From Desulfovibrio sp. (GTDB lineage Bacteria > Desulfobacterota > Desulfovibrionia > Desulfovibrionales > Desulfovibrionaceae), in the NCBI GenBank assembly GCA_030145055.1, contig JAQYWK010000001.1:248001-312000 (forward strand): 64,000 nucleotides of DNA, in the 5' to 3' direction. Made by a program: the position numbers and the translations under genes. How positions within the stretch are numbered: the stretch's first letter is position 1; each line of letters opens with the position of its first letter. Positions 5,706 to 35,721 of the stretch are shown piece after piece. Below the pieces are notes generated by a model that saw only the letters and a list, made by a program, of their open reading frames with translations, had not been told where the DNA came from and ran no database searches.

Positions 5706-7796
5706 TTAGAGTTCCTTAACAATAACTCCGCCTGTCACGCCACACTCACAAGAAGAATGACCGTATTCTGCTCTTTCTCTGTACTCTTCCTGCTTGCCCT
5801 TATTCCAGCGGCTGACAGGACGGTAATAACCAACAATACGTGTGTAGACTTCCGCATCTTTACCGCAGGTTGGGCATTCGAAATGCTCACCATAAAGGTA
5901 TCCGTGATCTTCACAGATTGAGAATGTCGGAGTTACTGAGATATAAGGTATCTTAGTATTCGTCATAGCTTTAATTATGAAATTGCGAAGAGCGGCAGTT
6001 TCGGAAACGGCTTCCCCGAGGAAGGTATGGAACACTGTTCCGCCGTTGTACAAAGTCTGCAACTTATCCTGATGCTCAAGAGCATAAACAACATCTTCTG
6101 TGGCGCCTACAGGCAGCAAAGTTGAGTTGGTGTAGTAAGGAACATCATCACCGGAAGTGTAAATATCCGCGTAAAGATTCTTATCGATCTTAGCTAGGCG
6201 GTAACATGTACCCTCGCCCGGAGTTGCCTCGAGGTTGTACAGATTATCTGTTTCTTCCTGAAATTCGACAACAAGCTCACGCAGATGATTCAGAACACGC
6301 TGCATAAGTCTTACGCCGCCGTCAGTGTCAATGCCCTTACCTAGCAGGTTGTGACATGCTTCATTACCACCGATAAGACCGATAGTGCTAAAGTGACCTT
6401 TAAACCCGTTCTTCAGGTAATGCTGTGAGAATGGGAACATTCCGCTTTCAAAGTTAGAGGAAACAAGTTTGCGTTTGAATTCAAGAGAATCCTTAGCAAG
6501 AGTCGCATACTCAGCAACAAGATCAAGGAAATCTTCTTCGCCCTGAGCAAGATAAGCAAGCTTAGGCAAATTCAAGGTAACAACACCGATGGAACCTGTC
6601 AGATCACCAGCACCGAAAAGACCACCTGTCTTTTTGCGGATTTCGCGAACATCCATCTGAAGACGACAACACATGGAGCGAACATCTTCAGGATTCAGAT
6701 CAGAGTTGATGAAGTTCTGGAAATAAGGTGCGCCGTATTTAGCGGTCATTTCTAATAACAATTCACCAACTTCTGTTTCCCATGGGAAATCAGGAGTTAC
6801 ATTGTATGTAGGAATCGGAAAGGAGAAAATACGTCCGTCAGAATCACCTTCGAGCATTACTTCAACGAAAGCTTTGTTGATCATTTCCATCTCAACGGCG
6901 TAATCACCGTAAGTGGTATCCATGAACTTTCCGCCGATGATCACAGGCTCGCTAGCGATATGTTTCGGAGGAACCATATCAAAAGTAAAGTTTGTAAAAG
7001 GACTCTGTCCGCCCCAGCGGGAAGTGGTATTCAAATTGAAGATAAGCTTCTGAACAATCTGCTTAACTCGGGGATACTCAAGTCCATCATGTCTAACGAA
7101 TGGAGCGAGATATGTATCTACGTTATTGAATGCCTGCGCACCCGCCCATTCATTCTGCAAAGTCCCAAGAAAGTTAACAATCTGCCCAGTAACGGAATCA
7201 AAATGTTTAGCGGGAGAAGAACAGCAACGTCCGGGGATACCGAAACCTTCAATCAAAAGATCACGCAAAGACCACCCAGCGCAGTATCCGGCAAGTCCGA
7301 AAGAAAGGTCATGGATGTGGAAATAGCCATGCTCATGAGCCTGTCTGATTTCCTCAGGATATTTTTCAAGGCAGTAACGAGCCTGAACTGCGCCGGACAT
7401 GTGGAGCATCAATCCCTGAAAGGAATGGCCCATATTTGAGTTTTCGTTAACACGCCAGTCTGAACGGTCAAGATAGCTTTCAATAGTGCCTGTAATGTCG
7501 AGATAAGCTTCGTCCTGCTTACGCAGTTCACGTCTTTTCTCACGATATATAATGTAACGTTCCGCAACGGAATATAAACGACTTTCCATCAGTACTAACT
7601 GAACCATATCCTGAACAGTTTCCTGCTCTGGAACGTCCATGTCAGCAAGCTTCTTCTCAACTTTTTTACCTAAGCGCTTGCCGAGTAAAGGATCTTTAAT
7701 TCCGCTAGCTTTAAGAGCTTTAAAAATTGCTTCAGAAATTCTTTCTGTAGACCAGGACTCAAGTCTTCCGTCACGTTTCAAAATTTGTTTTGGCAT
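5706..7796 (-). CDS. nrdD: Anaerobic (class III) ribonucleoside-triphosphate reductase
   Basis: Reduces ribonucleoside triphosphates to deoxyribonucleotides without oxygen, using a glycyl radical. The 696-residue protein starts with an ATP-cone (MPKQILKRDGRLESW), the allosteric nucleotide-binding domain. The C-terminus carries the radical segment IVGYYRPV, with the radical glycine near residue 656, and Cys pairs CPTC and CECG for the structural zinc. I place the start at ATG 7796, with AGG eight bases upstream; the open frame extends to a TTG just before it. No activase gene (nrdG) is adjacent, so the activating enzyme must be encoded elsewhere. Expression is very likely controlled by the long riboswitch leader at 7847-8160, which is shared with nrdJ in this window. 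Confidence 0.95.
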   Translation of the reverse strand: MPKQILKRDGRLESWSTERISEAIFKALKASGIKDPLLGKRLGKKVEKKLADMDVPEQETVQDMVQLVLMESRLYSVAERYIIYREKRRELRKQDEAYLDITGTIESYLDRSDWRVNENSNMGHSFQGLMLHMSGAVQARYCLEKYPEEIRQAHEHGYFHIHDLSFGLAGYCAGWSLRDLLIEGFGIPGRCCSSPAKHFDSVTGQIVNFLGTLQNEWAGAQAFNNVDTYLAPFVRHDGLEYPRVKQIVQKLIFNLNTTSRWGGQSPFTNFTFDMVPPKHIASEPVIIGGKFMDTTYGDYAVEMEMINKAFVEVMLEGDSDGRIFSFPIPTYNVTPDFPWETEVGELLLEMTAKYGAPYFQNFINSDLNPEDVRSMCCRLQMDVREIRKKTGGLFGAGDLTGSIGVVTLNLPKLAYLAQGEEDFLDLVAEYATLAKDSLEFKRKLVSSNFESGMFPFSQHYLKNGFKGHFSTIGLIGGNEACHNLLGKGIDTDGGVRLMQRVLNHLRELVVEFQEETDNLYNLEATPGEGTCYRLAKIDKNLYADIYTSGDDVPYYTNSTLLPVGATEDVVYALEHQDKLQTLYNGGTVFHTFLGEAVSETAALRNFIIKAMTNTKIPYISVTPTFSICEDHGYLYGEHFECPTCGKDAEVYTRIVGYYRPVSRWNKGKQEEYRERAEYGHSSCECGVTGGVIVKEL

Positions 7797-7846
7797 CAAT
7801 ACTACCTGTTAAGGGGTTGTCCGCACAAACCTTTGCCCACGTTGAA

Positions 7847-8030
7847 AAACTCTAGCGATATCGCAACAAAAAATTGCTGACATGCAAGGCTCCCGCATGG
7901 AGAATAAGGTATGAGCTTGTGGCGCAGGCGGCCCGGTAGGCGCATCCCGCAGGACTTTTTATGGGCCGAATGGCCTTAAGTATCAGAAATACAGGCGCAT
8001 TCGGAAAATGGAAATGCCTGCAAAAAACAG
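7847..8030 (-). ncRNA. Conserved structured leader segment between B12 riboswitch and nrdD
   Basis: This stretch, downstream of the cobalamin aptamer in the nrdD transcript, is paralogous to the segment at 32814-32990 before nrdJ. A 29-nt block at 7906-7934 matches the nrdJ block at 32900-32928 with one mismatch. Predicted hairpins are kept with changed sequence: a helix just after the aptamer (TGTCTG/CAGGCA here, TGTCT/AGACA in nrdJ), CATGC/GCATG here versus ACATG/CATGT, and GCAA/TTGC near the end versus a longer GCAATTTT/AAAATTGC. It probably forms the expression platform or a second sensing domain. It encodes no convincing protein. Confidence 0.65.
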
Positions 8031-8160
8031 ACATGCTTCAGGCAGAGAGGCTGGCTTTTCTTCACCCTGAAAGGGATAAAGCATACAGCGGCAGAACCGC
8101 CCCGGAATCTAACCGGGTTCTCTTTTTAAGGTCCAAAAAAAATAGGACTCCTGAAGTGCA
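8030..8160 (-). promoter_or_regulatory. Cobalamin riboswitch in the nrdD leader
   Basis: On the minus strand the outer helix is CTTCAGG (8150-8156) pairing with CCTGAAG (8036-8042). The core contains GGTTAGATTCCGGGGCGG followed by TGCCGCTGTA, the conserved cobalamin-aptamer core, then a B12-box-like element AGCCAGCCTCTCTGCC at 8041-8056 (consensus AGCCAGGAGACCTGCC). It lies just after a good promoter and about 230 nt before the nrdD start. It should bind adenosylcobalamin and link reductase expression to B12 supply. The direction of control cannot be read from sequence. Confidence 0.85.
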
Positions 8161-8175
8161 AAATCAACTTAGGGG

Positions 8176-8203
8176 AGTTTAACAAACCACCGTTTTTGGT
8201 CAA
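8176..8203 (-). promoter_or_regulatory. Sigma70-type promoter of nrdD leader
   Basis: The -35 TTGACC (8198-8203) and -10 TAAACT (8176-8181) are separated by 16 bp. The nrdJ leader has the same arrangement, and the two promoters share most of the spacer sequence. The predicted start of transcription falls about 10-20 bases before the riboswitch outer helix. Confidence 0.7.
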
Positions 8204-8300: not shown

Positions 8301-8332
8301 TGTTCATAACCATTTAAGAGACTGTTTTTATG
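8301..8332 (-). promoter_or_regulatory. 32-bp box shared with the nrdJ upstream region
   Basis: This segment matches 32509-32540 upstream of nrdJ at 29 of 32 positions. It lies 97 bp upstream of the -35, against 100 bp for nrdJ. Conservation at the same distance, in otherwise diverged DNA, suggests a binding site for a common regulator, possibly NrdR-like, although I do not see a canonical NrdR box. Confidence 0.55.
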
Positions 8333-31955: not shown

Positions 31956-32399
31956 ATGAATCAATCTGAAGAGAATCAAAAACTGATACTCAATTACGTA
32001 AAAAAGAACTGCGCACGTACGGGACTACAGACACATCACATGCCGGAAGTAACTGAAGCAGTTGTTGGCGGCCTTACCAACCATTTGAATGTGTTGAAAA
32101 GACCCCTGTGCCCTTGCCAGTTCTATTCCGATAAAGAAGAAGCGGTGAAGGAACGTACTTGGCTCTGTCCTTGCGATGATATGAAACAATACAAATACTG
32201 CCACTGCCTGCTCTTTGTTAATTCAGAAGGAAATCCTATCACTGAATACCTTCCTAAAGATCATGATGGACTAACCACCTACGGCCTTGTTACTGATCCT
32301 GCTCCTGAAAAAGGACGTAAAGGACAACGCATACCTGCCGAAGCAAACACAGCTGAAAATGTTTCAGTAAGAGAAGCGGAAGTCTCACCCGCTGCTTAA
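31956..32399 (+). CDS. Ferredoxin-thioredoxin reductase catalytic subunit-like protein
   Basis: A 147-residue protein with the exact Cys pattern of the catalytic subunit: CPC (52-54), 16 residues, CPC (71-73), 8 residues, CHC (82-84). These hold the 4Fe-4S cluster and the active-site disulfide that pass electrons from ferredoxin to thioredoxin. No variable subunit is adjacent, as in many anaerobes. The C-terminal 45 residues are a polar tail. It lies directly upstream of the nrdJ leader on the same strand, so its product may keep the thioredoxin pool reduced for ribonucleotide reductase. The start ATG has AGGGG about nine bases upstream. Confidence 0.88.
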   Translation: MNQSEENQKLILNYVKKNCARTGLQTHHMPEVTEAVVGGLTNHLNVLKRPLCPCQFYSDKEEAVKERTWLCPCDDMKQYKYCHCLLFVNSEGNPITEYLPKDHDGLTTYGLVTDPAPEKGRKGQRIPAEANTAENVSVREAEVSPAA

Positions 32400-32508
32400 G
32401 TAACATATTTGTTCAGATTGGCGACATTGCTCTTCCTGAGGCAATGCGCCAACCCGTTAATTTTTAGCAAAAAACATACAGCAATTTATAAGTAAACTTT
32501 AATATTTC

Positions 32509-32540
32509 CATAAAAACAGCCTCTTAAACGTTTATGAACA
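32509..32540 (+). promoter_or_regulatory. 32-bp box shared with the nrdD upstream region
   Basis: Matches 8301-8332 (read on the minus strand) at 29 of 32 positions and lies 100 bp before the -35. It is the most conserved part of the upstream regions and a likely regulator site. Confidence 0.55.
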
Positions 32541-32640
32541 CTAAAAACGACGACCTGTGGATAACTATCACCCACTTCTATGCCATCCCTACTCTCCCAT
32601 GGGCTAAAGAGAATTACTCATGAAAAAGTCTATAAAGGCC

Positions 32641-32668
32641 TTGACCCAAAACGCTGATTTGTTAGACT
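32641..32668 (+). promoter_or_regulatory. Sigma70-type promoter of the nrdJ leader
   Basis: TTGACC (32641-32646) and TAGACT (32663-32668) are separated by 16 bp. The layout is the same as for nrdD. Confidence 0.7.
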
Positions 32669-32685
32669 CATTTCCGTTGATTTTG

Positions 32686-32813
32686 AACTTCAGGAGTCTG
32701 ATTTTATTCAGACCGTGAAAAAGGTAACCCGGTTAGATTCCGGGGCGGTCCTGCCGCTGTAAACTTTATCCATAATAAGATGAAGAAAAGCCAGCTCCCA
32801 TCCTGAAGCGTGT
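32686..32813 (+). promoter_or_regulatory. Cobalamin riboswitch in the nrdJ leader
   Basis: The outer helix is CTTCAGG (32688-32694) with CCTGAAG (32802-32808). The core GGTTAGATTCCGGGGCGG continues as TGCCGCTGTAA (32731-32762), and AGCCAG of the B12 box is at 32789-32794. It is about 230 nt before nrdJ. The gene behind it uses adenosylcobalamin as cofactor, so the switch may activate or may simply report B12. Confidence 0.85.
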
Positions 32814-32990
32814 CTCCATTATGTAGACATTTACCATCTACCGAATGTGCCTATTTAAAGGTCATTCGGTCCAATAAAATCCTGCAGAACGAGCCTTCTG
32901 GGCCGCCTGCGACACAAGCTCATACCTTTTCTCCACATGGATCCTTGCATGTTCGCAATTTTAAAATTGCCATATCGCTAGCGTCTTGTA
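32814..32990 (+). ncRNA. Conserved structured leader segment between B12 riboswitch and nrdJ
   Basis: The paralogue of 7847-8030. It contains the 29-nt block at 32900-32928 (one mismatch to the nrdD leader) and hairpins TGTCT/AGACA, CCGAATG/CATTCGG, CAGAA/TTCTG, ACATG/CATGT and GCAATTTT/AAAATTGC. Several of these have different bases but conserved pairing in nrdD. It may set ribosome access or termination, or be a second ligand domain. Confidence 0.65.
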
Positions 32991-33036
32991 CTGTGGACGA
33001 GGCTGGGCAGACAATCACTTCAAAGGATCTCTTTTA

Positions 33037-35721
33037 ATGACCGAACAATCCGTTATCACCCGTGAATCCGCTAAGATGGCCCTTGAAGAACACACCCGTT
33101 TTCAAGAAACCGTTAGCTCCAAAAAATATCAAATCCGCGATCACAAAGGACGCCTTCAAGAGCACTCTTTTGCTGATGTTAAACACAGGCTTTGCCGTGA
33201 ATATTTAAAACAATCCAAATTTGATAATAAGGAAAACGAACAGGTCTGTGAAATGCTCCAATCCGGACGTTTCATACCTGCAGGTTCCATTCTCTCCGGG
33301 CTAGGTAACGACTTTATAAAATGCTCCCTCAGCAACTGCTATTTAGCTAAGATCGAATCAGATTCCCTAGAAGGTATCTTTGAAGCTCAGAAGAAGCTTG
33401 CCCGTACCTATTCCTACCGTGGAGGTAGCGGAGTCGATATAACCATACTGCGTCCTTCGGGCGACCCTGTAAATAATGCAGCGGTCACGTCTTCAGGCGC
33501 AGTAAGCTTCATGCCACTTTTCAGTGAACTAACGAATACCATAGGGCAAAATGGCAGACGCGGCGCGCTAATGATATCTATGGATATTAGACACCCTGAC
33601 ACCCGTCGTTTCATCTGGTGCAAAAGCAAGCCTGAAGAAATCTTCGGAGTGGATTCCCTCACGGGTAAAACTCAGGATGTATTCGGGGCAAATATCAGCG
33701 TCAAAATCACCGATGCTTTCATGCAGGCAGTAGAAGATGATGCGGACTGGACCTTTACTTTCCCCGACAGAGCCAAAGTAACAGGTAAGATCTATGATAC
33801 ATCCAGATTACAGCTTCTACCCGAGGTCTATGAGGCCCTTGATCCGCGCGTAGGGGATCGTCTTGTAGCAGAAATAGTCTACAAAGTAATTGCAGTTGAG
33901 CCTAAAAAACATTTGATCAAGGTCCAGCCGCATCTCCCAGAAAACGATGAGCAGGCTGCTTTTTCTGACGAGACACTGACCTTCACCCTTACCAGACGCC
34001 GCAACGAAACATCCGACATATTCGACGACATAAAATCCGTATATAATGATCTCTGGGACGGAGATTACAGCCGCTGGGAAGAGCTGAACCTTCCTTTCAA
34101 AGCATATGACACTGTCAGCGCACGTTCACTGCTCGAAGAAATAAGTACTTCAGCATGGCAGTCCGGCGATCCTGGAATTTTGTATCAGGACACTACACAG
34201 CGCAATACTCCAGGCACATACATTGATCCTCTGCGCCTCAAGCCAATGTCCACCAATCCATGCGGCGAGCAAAGCCTCGGCTACTGGAACAATTGCCTGC
34301 TCGGAGCGATGGTTTTGTATCGCTATGTGACCAATCCATTTACCAAAGAAGCTAAATTCGATGTGGACCTATTCCACAACGACCTAGCACGGACAATGGC
34401 CTTTATGGACACTATGTCAGACCTTAACCAAGACAAGCATCCTCTTCAGAAACACCGCGACGCAGATAAGTACGGTAAGAGAATTGGCATAGAATTCACG
34501 GGACTAGGCGACATGCTGGCTATGATGGGCATGCGTTACGGCAGTGAAGAATCCATATCCTTTGTAAAAAATATTCTGCGCGATAAAGCAATAACCGAAA
34601 TATCCATCAGTGCGGATATTGCCGGACGCTTAGGAGTTGTTGAGGCTTTAAAAGATCCAGCGGCCAGAACGCGTTTTCTGGAATGTCCGTACATAACAAA
34701 TCTCGATCTGCCTAAAAAATTACAGACAAAGATCATGAAAAATGGACTTCGCCATACGGCCTTTAATACCGTTGGGCCTTCAGGTTCCATTTCCATCATG
34801 TCGGATAACTGTACCTCTGGAATCGAACCTGCGTTCCTTTTCAGTTACACCAGAGAAACCCGCCTTGAAGCTGGTAAAGTTTTTGAATTCATTCACATGC
34901 CTCCACTAAAATGGATGGTCGAAACCAATCAGGAAGAGTTGTTTGGAAAATATACAGCCACGCAGCTCAAAGAAAAACTGAATTACGTGCAGTCCGATGA
35001 ACTCGATTACATGGACCGCATTCGTATGCAGTCTGCTATTCAGGAATACACAGACAGCTCAATTTCCTCGACCATCAACCTTTCCGAAGAGACTCCTAAG
35101 GAAACCATATTCCAGATTTACCTTGAAGCATGGAAACACAACCTCAAAGGTGTAACTGTCTTCCGTAATGGTTGTAAAAAAGGTGTACTGAGCAAGAAAG
35201 AAGATAAGAAAGAGACCAAACCGACCATGCGGGGCCAAAACCCGACCCTATTTGAAAGGGAACTTGGCGATATAGAACGGGCCGAGCGGCATAGAGTTAC
35301 GTGGAAAGGATCTAAGATGTACATGATTGTATCCTTAGACGACGCCGGTAACCCAATTGAAATATTTGTTAAACTTCCTAAGGAAGCGGGAATGACCGGT
35401 TCAGGAATATACAACGAGCAGGTCTTTCAAGAGAAATACTCTCTATGGGAAACCATCACACGTTTAACTAGTATGTTACTGCGCGTAGGCATGCCCATCG
35501 ACCGGATTCTGTCGCAACTTGATCGCTCCAGCTACAATATAATTGATGCATCTGCGATCATTTCCCGCATCCTGCGCCAATACATATCATTAGATATGGA
35601 TGATCAGACCATCGTATCCAAAGGACTCGGAAGCCCTTGCCCTGAGTGCGGTCAAAATGCCTATGTCCCCGAAGGCGGATGCAAAATCTGCAAAGCGTGC
35701 GGATACACCACCTGCGGATAA
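33037..35721 (+). CDS. nrdJ: Adenosylcobalamin-dependent (class II) ribonucleotide reductase
   Basis: Reduces ribonucleotides using a radical generated from adenosylcobalamin, with thioredoxin as reductant, with or without oxygen. The 894-residue protein has the substrate-cysteine segment SLSNCYL, the radical-loop motif NPCGEQSLG near residue 410, and GPSGSISIMSDNCTSGIEPAF near residue 590. The C-terminal region is a TSCPD-type domain followed by a zinc-ribbon CPECG...CKICKACGYTTCG with redox Cys residues. There is no N-terminal ATP-cone. I take ATG 33037 as start, with AAAGGA upstream; the open frame extends to a TTG in the leader. It is preceded by the riboswitch leader and followed by a strong terminator. 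Confidence 0.95.
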   Translation: MTEQSVITRESAKMALEEHTRFQETVSSKKYQIRDHKGRLQEHSFADVKHRLCREYLKQSKFDNKENEQVCEMLQSGRFIPAGSILSGLGNDFIKCSLSNCYLAKIESDSLEGIFEAQKKLARTYSYRGGSGVDITILRPSGDPVNNAAVTSSGAVSFMPLFSELTNTIGQNGRRGALMISMDIRHPDTRRFIWCKSKPEEIFGVDSLTGKTQDVFGANISVKITDAFMQAVEDDADWTFTFPDRAKVTGKIYDTSRLQLLPEVYEALDPRVGDRLVAEIVYKVIAVEPKKHLIKVQPHLPENDEQAAFSDETLTFTLTRRRNETSDIFDDIKSVYNDLWDGDYSRWEELNLPFKAYDTVSARSLLEEISTSAWQSGDPGILYQDTTQRNTPGTYIDPLRLKPMSTNPCGEQSLGYWNNCLLGAMVLYRYVTNPFTKEAKFDVDLFHNDLARTMAFMDTMSDLNQDKHPLQKHRDADKYGKRIGIEFTGLGDMLAMMGMRYGSEESISFVKNILRDKAITEISISADIAGRLGVVEALKDPAARTRFLECPYITNLDLPKKLQTKIMKNGLRHTAFNTVGPSGSISIMSDNCTSGIEPAFLFSYTRETRLEAGKVFEFIHMPPLKWMVETNQEELFGKYTATQLKEKLNYVQSDELDYMDRIRMQSAIQEYTDSSISSTINLSEETPKETIFQIYLEAWKHNLKGVTVFRNGCKKGVLSKKEDKKETKPTMRGQNPTLFERELGDIERAERHRVTWKGSKMYMIVSLDDAGNPIEIFVKLPKEAGMTGSGIYNEQVFQEKYSLWETITRLTSMLLRVGMPIDRILSQLDRSSYNIIDASAIISRILRQYISLDMDDQTIVSKGLGSPCPECGQNAYVPEGGCKICKACGYTTCG

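Follow-up and report, generated by a model that had tools for sequence, protein, structure and literature searches.

A cobalamin-type leader cassette shared by nrdJ and nrdD-1 in a Desulfovibrio genus, with a putative Shine-Dalgarno-masking contact in most nrdD-1 leaders that is missing from nrdJ

The window analysed here is a stretch of 64,000 nucleotides (G000:C1:248001-312000) from a Desulfovibrio genome of 3.9 Mb which is 99.99% complete. It contains two ribonucleotide reductase genes, nrdJ and nrdD (here nrdD-1), and each of them is preceded by a match to the cobalamin riboswitch family RF00174 of Rfam, with 42.0 bits at 32675-32820 on the forward strand before nrdJ and 40.2 bits at 8169-8024 on the reverse strand before nrdD, compared to a gathering score of 31.5. 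In total, four RF00174 matches were identified in the genome. One of the two higher-scoring switches is located at L002 1501-1703 (G000:C7), before a gene whose beginning resembles metE. A B12 switch at nrdJ had been proposed in a sequence-only reading for positions 32814-32990; the switch is real, and its position is shifted, since that span takes in no more than the final 7 bases of the RF00174 match, and otherwise consists mainly of the expression platform or "extra domain" 3' of the aptamer. The nrdJ gene and the parts of its leader are the following:

32641 to 32668, forward strand: promoter-like site of the nrdJ leader, TTGACC - 16 - TAGACT (one found, 1.4 expected in shuffles, and by itself weak).
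32675 to 32820, forward strand: cobalamin riboswitch aptamer of nrdJ (RF00174, 42.0 bits).
32728 to 32744, forward strand: P5/L5 hairpin of the aptamer, with the loop GUUAGAUUC (from the sequence).
32788 to 32799, forward strand: AAGCCAG and an altered J6/3, with CUCC replacing the RAGA-type junction (from the alignment).
32810 to 32830, forward strand: hairpin X, directly 3' of the aptamer, its 5' strand without complementarity to the nrdJ Shine-Dalgarno sequence (duplex and folding tests).
32840 to 32870, forward strand: hairpin Y (from the sequence, with a counterpart in the nrdD alignment).
32884 to 32910, forward strand: hairpin E, core of the "extra domain" (covariation; match to model R1 at 32875-32920, 61.8 bits).
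33022 to 33029, forward strand: Shine-Dalgarno sequence (SD) of nrdJ, AAAGGAUC (from the sequence; AAAGGA in 10 of 12 nrdJ leaders).
33037 to 35721, forward strand: nrdJ, coding for a predicted divergent class II (adenosylcobalamin-type) ribonucleotide reductase of 894 amino acids (TIGR02504, PF02867, TSCPD, 1xje).

The corresponding features of nrdD are encoded on the other strand:

8176 to 8203, reverse strand: promoter-like site of the nrdD leader, TTGACC - 16 - TAAACT (scan for promoter-like sites).
8024 to 8169, reverse strand: cobalamin riboswitch aptamer of nrdD-1 (RF00174, 40.2 bits).
8014 to 8034, reverse strand: hairpin X, its 5' strand able to pair with the nrdD SD, with two G-U pairs here (duplex and folding tests).
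7966 to 8004, reverse strand: hairpin Y (nrdD alignment and sequence).
7924 to 7950, reverse strand: hairpin E (covariation; match to R1 at 7914-7959, 66.5 bits).
7801 to 7809, reverse strand: SD of nrdD, ACAGGUAGU (from the sequence; CAGGUA in 14 of 16 nrdD-1 leaders).
5706 to 7796, reverse strand: nrdD-1, class III ribonucleotide reductase (family profiles; ATG at 7796, the mechanical open reading frame starting from TTG at 7799).

That nrdD carries the same leader as nrdJ, as claimed earlier, was confirmed: the two leaders can be aligned over the whole distance between promoter and start codon, with a mean column identity of 82% over the aligned fragments given, and judged by this alignment they are paralogous. 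The TTGAC of the promoter-like site is kept in 12/12 nrdJ and 16/16 nrdD leaders. An element of the type CATAAAAACAGYCTCTTAAA..TTATGAACA is common to both leaders upstream of the promoters (32508-32540, forward strand, and 8301-8332, reverse strand). A motif like it was found in four of 42 leaders scanned (L115, L116, L127, L141), and the element is possibly a regulator site.

For the window NrdJ, the TIGR02504 score of 402.1 bits is marginal compared to the cut-off of 399.95, and three relatives score just under it. The comparison with the solved B12-dependent reductase 1xje gave an E value of 3.4e-53, in which the active-site motif STNPCGE was aligned (NPCGE). A domain search revealed no ATP-cone match in the window NrdJ. 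By family and active-site match, the enzyme is classified as class II and adenosylcobalamin-type, in agreement with the earlier reading. A misnamed nrdJ which really codes for a B12-independent enzyme would dissolve the paradox described below, and is not favoured because the class II features are present. The nrdD product was identified as NrdD, class III, with 537.8 bits to TIGR02487.

Outside the genus, TIGR02504 matches of more than 700 bits were obtained in 19 of the 23 genomes searched; the remaining ones showed split matches (G025, G030), a match of 406 bits (G026) or none (G022). The window NrdJ is 27-32% identical to the two high-scoring NrdJ proteins from outside the genus which were compared. 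An 80%-identical relative was identified in G026 (L181), from another family of the order, and no Rfam match was found in the approximately 830 bases upstream of its gene. The identity to the enzyme of the Bacteroides phage DAC22 is 33%, a likeness about equal to that between the window NrdJ (33037-35721) and bacterial NrdJ proteins from outside the genus (23-35%), L181 aside. A horizontal origin of this NrdJ type is possible. Directly before the nrdJ leader, at 31956-32399, a gene with a ferredoxin-thioredoxin reductase beta-chain domain (PF02943) is located, for which a link as an electron donor is possible.

In the window genome, a single PF02867 protein and a single match to NrdD were identified. 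The PF02867 search, which gave a signal in E. coli and in ten further controls, revealed no second protein here, and an undetected class I enzyme or another class II enzyme was rejected on this basis. All reductases found in the window genome are therefore located behind a B12 switch, so that dNTP synthesis would come to a halt if both were fully repressed, and at least one of them must stay on in the presence of B12. In the published model for Desulfovibrio, as given in the available text, B12 represses NrdD, and NrdJ is used instead (PMC545781). This model alone explains neither the window genome nor five further genomes of the genus which carry a switched nrdD-1 and are devoid of nrdJ.

Among the 17 genomes of the genus, nrdJ is present in 12, nrdD-1 in 16 and nrdD-2, a second nrdD of about 74% identity, in 14 genomes; nrdD-1 is absent only from G009, a metagenome-assembled genome which is 84% complete. 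An RF00174 match precedes nrdJ in 12/12 cases, all above the gathering score, and nrdD-1 in 16/16 cases, 13 of them above it, the other three scoring 29.5 (G005), 28.9 (G006) and 22.1 bits (G014). No RF00174 match was found before any of the 14 nrdD-2 genes of these 17 genomes; the DNA upstream of nrdD-2 is coding sequence in the five leaders examined, and matches to TIGR02495 (NrdG) adjoin the gene. Given its recurrence throughout the genus, the location of the switch before the reductase genes is not a matter of chance. Outside the genus, none of the NrdJ loci scanned showed the switch as an nrdJ leader, neither the 20 from the order nor the 68 scanned from a further set of 79 (0/88 in total, with up to 1.5 kb of upstream sequence, or less where a contig ended). 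In L040, which belongs to the 68, a switch ends about 1.1 kb before nrdJ. In other genera, nrdD is preceded by a canonical switch, scoring 59-109 bits, at the five loci examined (L020, L023-L026), and in L023-L026 a gene which by its sequence reads like nrdG lies between the two.

NrdJ and nrdD-1 occur without nrdD-2 in the window genome, G012 and G008. The loss of nrdD-2 beside nrdG left a C-terminal remnant in G012 (L190 2429-2705), and only nrdG is left in the window genome (L189). A switched nrdD-1 without a TIGR02504 match at an E value of 1e-5 was identified in five genomes which are 99-100% complete, namely G001 (L133), G004 (L139), G005 (L129), G006 (L131) and G015 (L136). The absence of this match implies that NrdJ is missing from these genomes and, as judged from the E. 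coli control, NrdA as well.

The RF00174 core is present in both window leaders, with the GAACC junction, GCCGCUGU and the AGCCAG half of the B12 box, and the aptamer of the cassette is truncated. Single deviations from the core occur, such as GGUAACC in the window nrdJ. Among the nrdJ leaders, GGGAACC is exact in 8/12 and CUGCCGCUGU in 10/12, and AAGCCAG is kept in 12/12; CGGGGCGG and CUGAAG are kept in 12/12 nrdJ and 15/16 nrdD leaders. Since these core motifs are kept while the spacers vary, a function of the nrdJ aptamer is favoured.

The J6/3 junction lines the ligand pocket of cobalamin aptamers and bears on the selectivity for adenosyl or for methyl and hydroxo forms, and corrinoid preference cannot be read from a sequence. 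A RAGA-type J6/3 (GGAGACC or GAAGACC) was found in 0/28 nrd leaders, 22 of which show CNNC in a manual alignment, compared to AAGA in six, AAAA in one (L023) and AAUA in one (L040) of eight other switches from the same genome and order. With J6/3 changed in 28/28, a corrinoid is no more than a putative ligand of the nrd leaders. In a different explanation, which is compatible with the others and which we regard as improbable, the rebuilt aptamer would sense another corrinoid or a signal of nucleotide supply and control both reductases. Such a change of ligand would be in line with the difference in J6/3 to the canonical switches and with the persistence of the switch on nrdD-1 in the five genomes without a TIGR02504 match, while the retention of CGGGGCGG and CUGAAG and of RF00174 scores above the cut-off in 12/12 nrdJ and 13/16 nrdD leaders argues against it.

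The second conserved part of the leaders is hairpin E, present in 28/28 leaders and in most of them of the form GCRGG-4 nt-GCC-UWCY-GGGC-2 nt-CCUGC. Over 27 distinct rows of the alignment, 96.3% of the cells pair, and four of eight pairs are changed on both sides; the pairing values were reached by 0 to 4 of 500 shuffles, a result which is weakened by the relatedness of the sequences. A conserved extra domain before both genes, as the sequence-only reading had noticed, is therefore present and covarying. Among 297 genomes of the order, the covariance model R1 of E gave E values below 1e-7 at the 28 source leaders only. Weaker matches (E values from 3.3e-5 up) were obtained in 28 further genomes, and none of the 13 weaker loci examined showed a relative of NrdJ or NrdD (E value of 1e-3); at four of the six examined from genus g21 (L209, L213, L214, L220), one repeated sequence within an opposite-strand open reading frame of about 300 codons was matched. 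The idea of E as a widely used RNA was dropped, since the strong matches are confined to the genus and the weaker ones examined look accidental. At E values below 0.01, E was not found at 14 nrdD-2 and 19 canonical nrdJ loci, at L181 or at the five nrdD loci of other genera. Thus, E is a lineage-specific part of this platform.

In the search of the nrdJ leader, no Rfam family came near its cut-off for the extra domain, and a known second aptamer, as in a tandem riboswitch, was rejected on this basis; a new family remains conceivable. A GUCC:GGAC helix closing the E domain pairs in 16/16 nrdD leaders with one one-sided change, and because this change is single and one-sided, the covariation says little; by eye, the helix is weakened in the six nrdJ leaders of A3. 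A docking of the E loop on the SD was rejected, because the controls with swapped genes and shuffled sequences failed. For the own and the swapped gene, the values were -3.57 and -3.37 with nrdJ loops and -3.51 and -3.28 with nrdD loops, and equally low values were reached by 43/300 and 38/300 shuffles. The earlier proposal of a reversal of the switch by the extra domain is not supported, and the gene-specific difference that could be identified lies elsewhere, in the strand following the aptamer and in the SD.

This difference was identified from the duplex energy between the SD and the 15 bases after the aptamer P2 strand, which form the 5' side of hairpin X. For nrdD-1, the mean over 16/16 leaders is -7.46 kcal/mol, compared to -4.11 (sd 0.45) for shuffled X strands, with 0/300 as low, and for nrdJ the mean over 12/12 leaders is -2.66 kcal/mol, compared to -3.9 (sd 0.54), with 299/300 as low, shuffle numbers which ignore the relatedness of the leaders. 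In 11/11 genomes with both genes, the match is stronger in nrdD than in nrdJ. When the 3' strand of X was blocked in silico, the mean probability that the SD pairs with the 5' strand of X was 0.42 for nrdD and 0.01 for nrdJ, the assignment of X being poor in G003, which has no X, and in G004, G010 and G016, whose X hairpins are longer. Hairpin X is the best or tied-best partner of the SD in 9/16 nrdD and 0/12 nrdJ leaders. The match is also good in the five nrdJ-less genomes, the value of -11.7 in G015 being the strongest of the 16 nrdD-1 leaders. In most genomes, nrdD-1 thus has a plausible OFF platform of the classical type, and nrdJ is without its key contact.

A second contact, the L5-L13 kissing loop of the riboswitch family, was searched for in the loop L5 of the aptamer, which pairs by 6-9 bp with a stretch just 3' of X in 7/16 nrdD leaders. 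In shuffle tests over six of these seven, fractions of 0.003 to 0.09 were obtained; in the seventh, G003, the tested region did not reach this stretch, and the value obtained (0.10) belongs to a second UUCAAA located directly 5' of E. The values of 0.11 to 0.66 for the other nine nrdD leaders and of 0.02 to 0.95 for nrdJ revealed nothing consistent.

Taken together, the explanation which we prefer, though still tentatively and with somewhat less than even confidence in it as a whole, is that both leaders are copies, with exchange between them, of one lineage-specific cassette consisting of the promoter, the truncated aptamer, the hairpins X, Y and E and the SD. In nrdD-1, this cassette would act as a translational OFF switch, in which binding of the ligand opens hairpin X, driven in a good part of the relatives by a kissing loop between L5 and a loop just after X. 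The opened 5' strand of X, of the UACCUG type, would then pair with the nrdD SD (CAGGUA), and NrdD would not be made. In nrdJ, the same cassette would be combined with another SD (AAAGGA) and a non-matching X strand, and because its SD is unmatched by the X strand, B12 could not shut nrdJ by this route. The net logic would be that NrdD goes down and NrdJ is on when B12 is present, and that NrdD is on when it is absent; most likely, the usual isozyme swap survives the shared leader. The retained nrdJ aptamer would probably serve a modest tuning, by a step not visible in the sequence. In support of this explanation, one group of nrdJ platforms falls among those of nrdD in the platform tree, and the published OFF model for Desulfovibrio nrdD agrees with it (PMC545781). 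The cassette with its distribution, hairpin E and the X:SD difference are observations, and the ligand, the direction of control and the remaining task of the nrdJ aptamer are inferred. Among the options which the sequence-only reading had offered, the one that B12 tunes NrdJ against NrdD fits best.

Several findings count against this model. In the window itself, the X:SD match of nrdD is weak (-5.4, two G-U pairs, probability 0.15), and hairpin X is terminator-like instead, without a clear kissing loop. The match of the G012 nrdD is likewise weak (probability 0.11), and the nrdD leaders of G003 and G002 are without one. Other CCUG strands could pair with the nrdD SD, the 3' strand of P2 in several leaders, and the L5 partner UUCAAA is duplicated just before E in 8/16 nrdD leaders, so that it is not unique. 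The pairing of the window nrdJ SD with the aptamer in whole-leader folding (probability 0.61) and the changed J6/3 also speak against it. Further, the nrdD-1 switch in the five near-complete genomes without a TIGR02504 match is unaccounted for by the swap logic, and a simple escape of nrdJ would not require the conserved core of its aptamer.

This conserved core in 12 nrdJ leaders is in line with a B12-ON switch at nrdJ, in which binding of the ligand would free or strengthen expression. Such a switch makes physiological sense, and an activating corrinoid riboswitch exists, that of A. halodurans cobT (PMC10653944). In whole-leader folding, the nrdJ SD pairs with the aptamer with a probability of 0.61 in the window and 0.94 in G014. 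However, a probability above 0.5 was obtained for just these 2/12 nrdJ leaders and also for 2/16 nrdD leaders (G012, G011), the mean being 0.19 in both groups alike, and on the sense strand of the nrdJ leader there is no terminator on which an antiterminator could act, since both of its terminator-like sites are on the opposite strand. An ON design in which the unliganded aptamer sequesters the SD was therefore rejected for the gene groups, though not for the window nrdJ alone. For the earlier suggestion of an ON switch, whole-leader folding gave no consistent sign, although the value of 0.61 in the window nrdJ would fit such a design. We consider an ON switch at nrdJ doubtful.

If both genes were instead under ordinary OFF control, B12 would lower nrdJ as well, though only partly and through transcription, Rho or decay in place of a masked SD, and the amount of enzyme would be raised when the cofactor is scarce. 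The promoter, the aptamer and E are common to both genes, and the switch of Veillonella parvula mutA, measured as fold repression, offers a precedent in the available text (PMC9600662). Against this, X does not mask the SD in nrdJ, no terminator-like site is present on the sense strand of its leader (in the window nrdD leader, two of four are, one of them being hairpin X), and strong co-repression would be lethal, no unswitched reductase having been found in the window genome. We consider ordinary OFF control of both genes unlikely.

The nrdJ switch could also be a passenger without influence on expression, carried along when its leader recombined with that of nrdD, a possibility to which the tree of the platforms is relevant. 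In this tree (FastTree, midpoint-rooted), six nrdJ platforms group with the nrdD platform of G012 with a support of 0.98, and, as drawn, the nrdD platform of the window is also located beside the nrdJ group. Such grouping and the absence of X:SD coupling in nrdJ would agree with a passenger; it is nevertheless judged very unlikely, with CGGGGCGG, AAGCCAG and CUGAAG kept in 12/12 nrdJ leaders while the spacers vary, and E present in all 12 with compensatory changes over the 28 leaders. As a further and rather improbable possibility, the cassette would represent a new RNA regulator of ribonucleotide reductases with two domains, in which the J6/3-rebuilt aptamer is joined by E as a second sensing or docking domain and opposite outputs, nrdD off and nrdJ on, are set by the SD and X strand of each gene.

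What appears to be new in the preferred explanation, as read from the leaders, is a cobalamin-type cassette common to two competing reductases, in which nrdJ is freed of the SD-masking contact kept by nrdD-1 in most genomes. Genomes with a switch at every reductase found cannot apply the textbook OFF rule throughout, and they offer a direct test of one leader serving opposite isozymes. If the reading of X and SD is true, the sign of the switch would be set by a few bases near the aptamer and the start codon, and not by the aptamer. In addition, the cassette offers a lineage-specific hairpin and, as an object for binding tests, an aptamer whose ligand junction has been rebuilt.

Veillonella parvula mutA codes for methylmalonyl-CoA mutase and is a B12-using gene. 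A cobalamin switch is likewise located before it; the enzyme is another one, and from the available text there is apparently no leader in common with a B12-independent isozyme (PMC9600662). A report of a cobalamin riboswitch before nrdJ was not found in the literature searched, which mostly did not include subscription papers and of which the sources were available in part. In Streptomyces lividans, nrdJ is listed with the NrdJ RNA motif (RF03034) upstream of it (PMC8079986), a structured RNA in the same place which, in contrast to the one described here, is not a cobalamin aptamer; it is not among the seven Rfam matches obtained up to an E value of 10 in the nrdJ leader (32500-33060).

That aptamers of this class can serve in ON switches is known from the activating corrinoid riboswitch of A. 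halodurans cobT, in which an intrinsic terminator is relieved by antitermination (PMC10653944, available text). In contrast to it, the nrdJ leader is without a sense-strand terminator-like site, so that a mutual exclusivity of P13 and terminator is not given. For P. acnes, switches were described on nrdAB and nrdDG and none on the nrdRJ operon in the available text (PMC3848588). The system is similar in that cobalamin switches are located on B12-independent reductases with NrdJ alongside, and differs in that nrdJ is switched here and nrdRJ is unswitched there. The closest comparison is to Desulfovibrio vulgaris and Desulfuromonas, where a B12-element precedes nrdDG, as described in the part of the paper available (PMC545781). 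Both systems share a core aptamer above the cut-off, a reductase as the target and the OFF logic proposed there for nrdD; unlike in those organisms, the element is here also located before nrdJ, its aptamer is truncated, J6/3 is changed, E is added and nrdD-1 is apart from nrdG.
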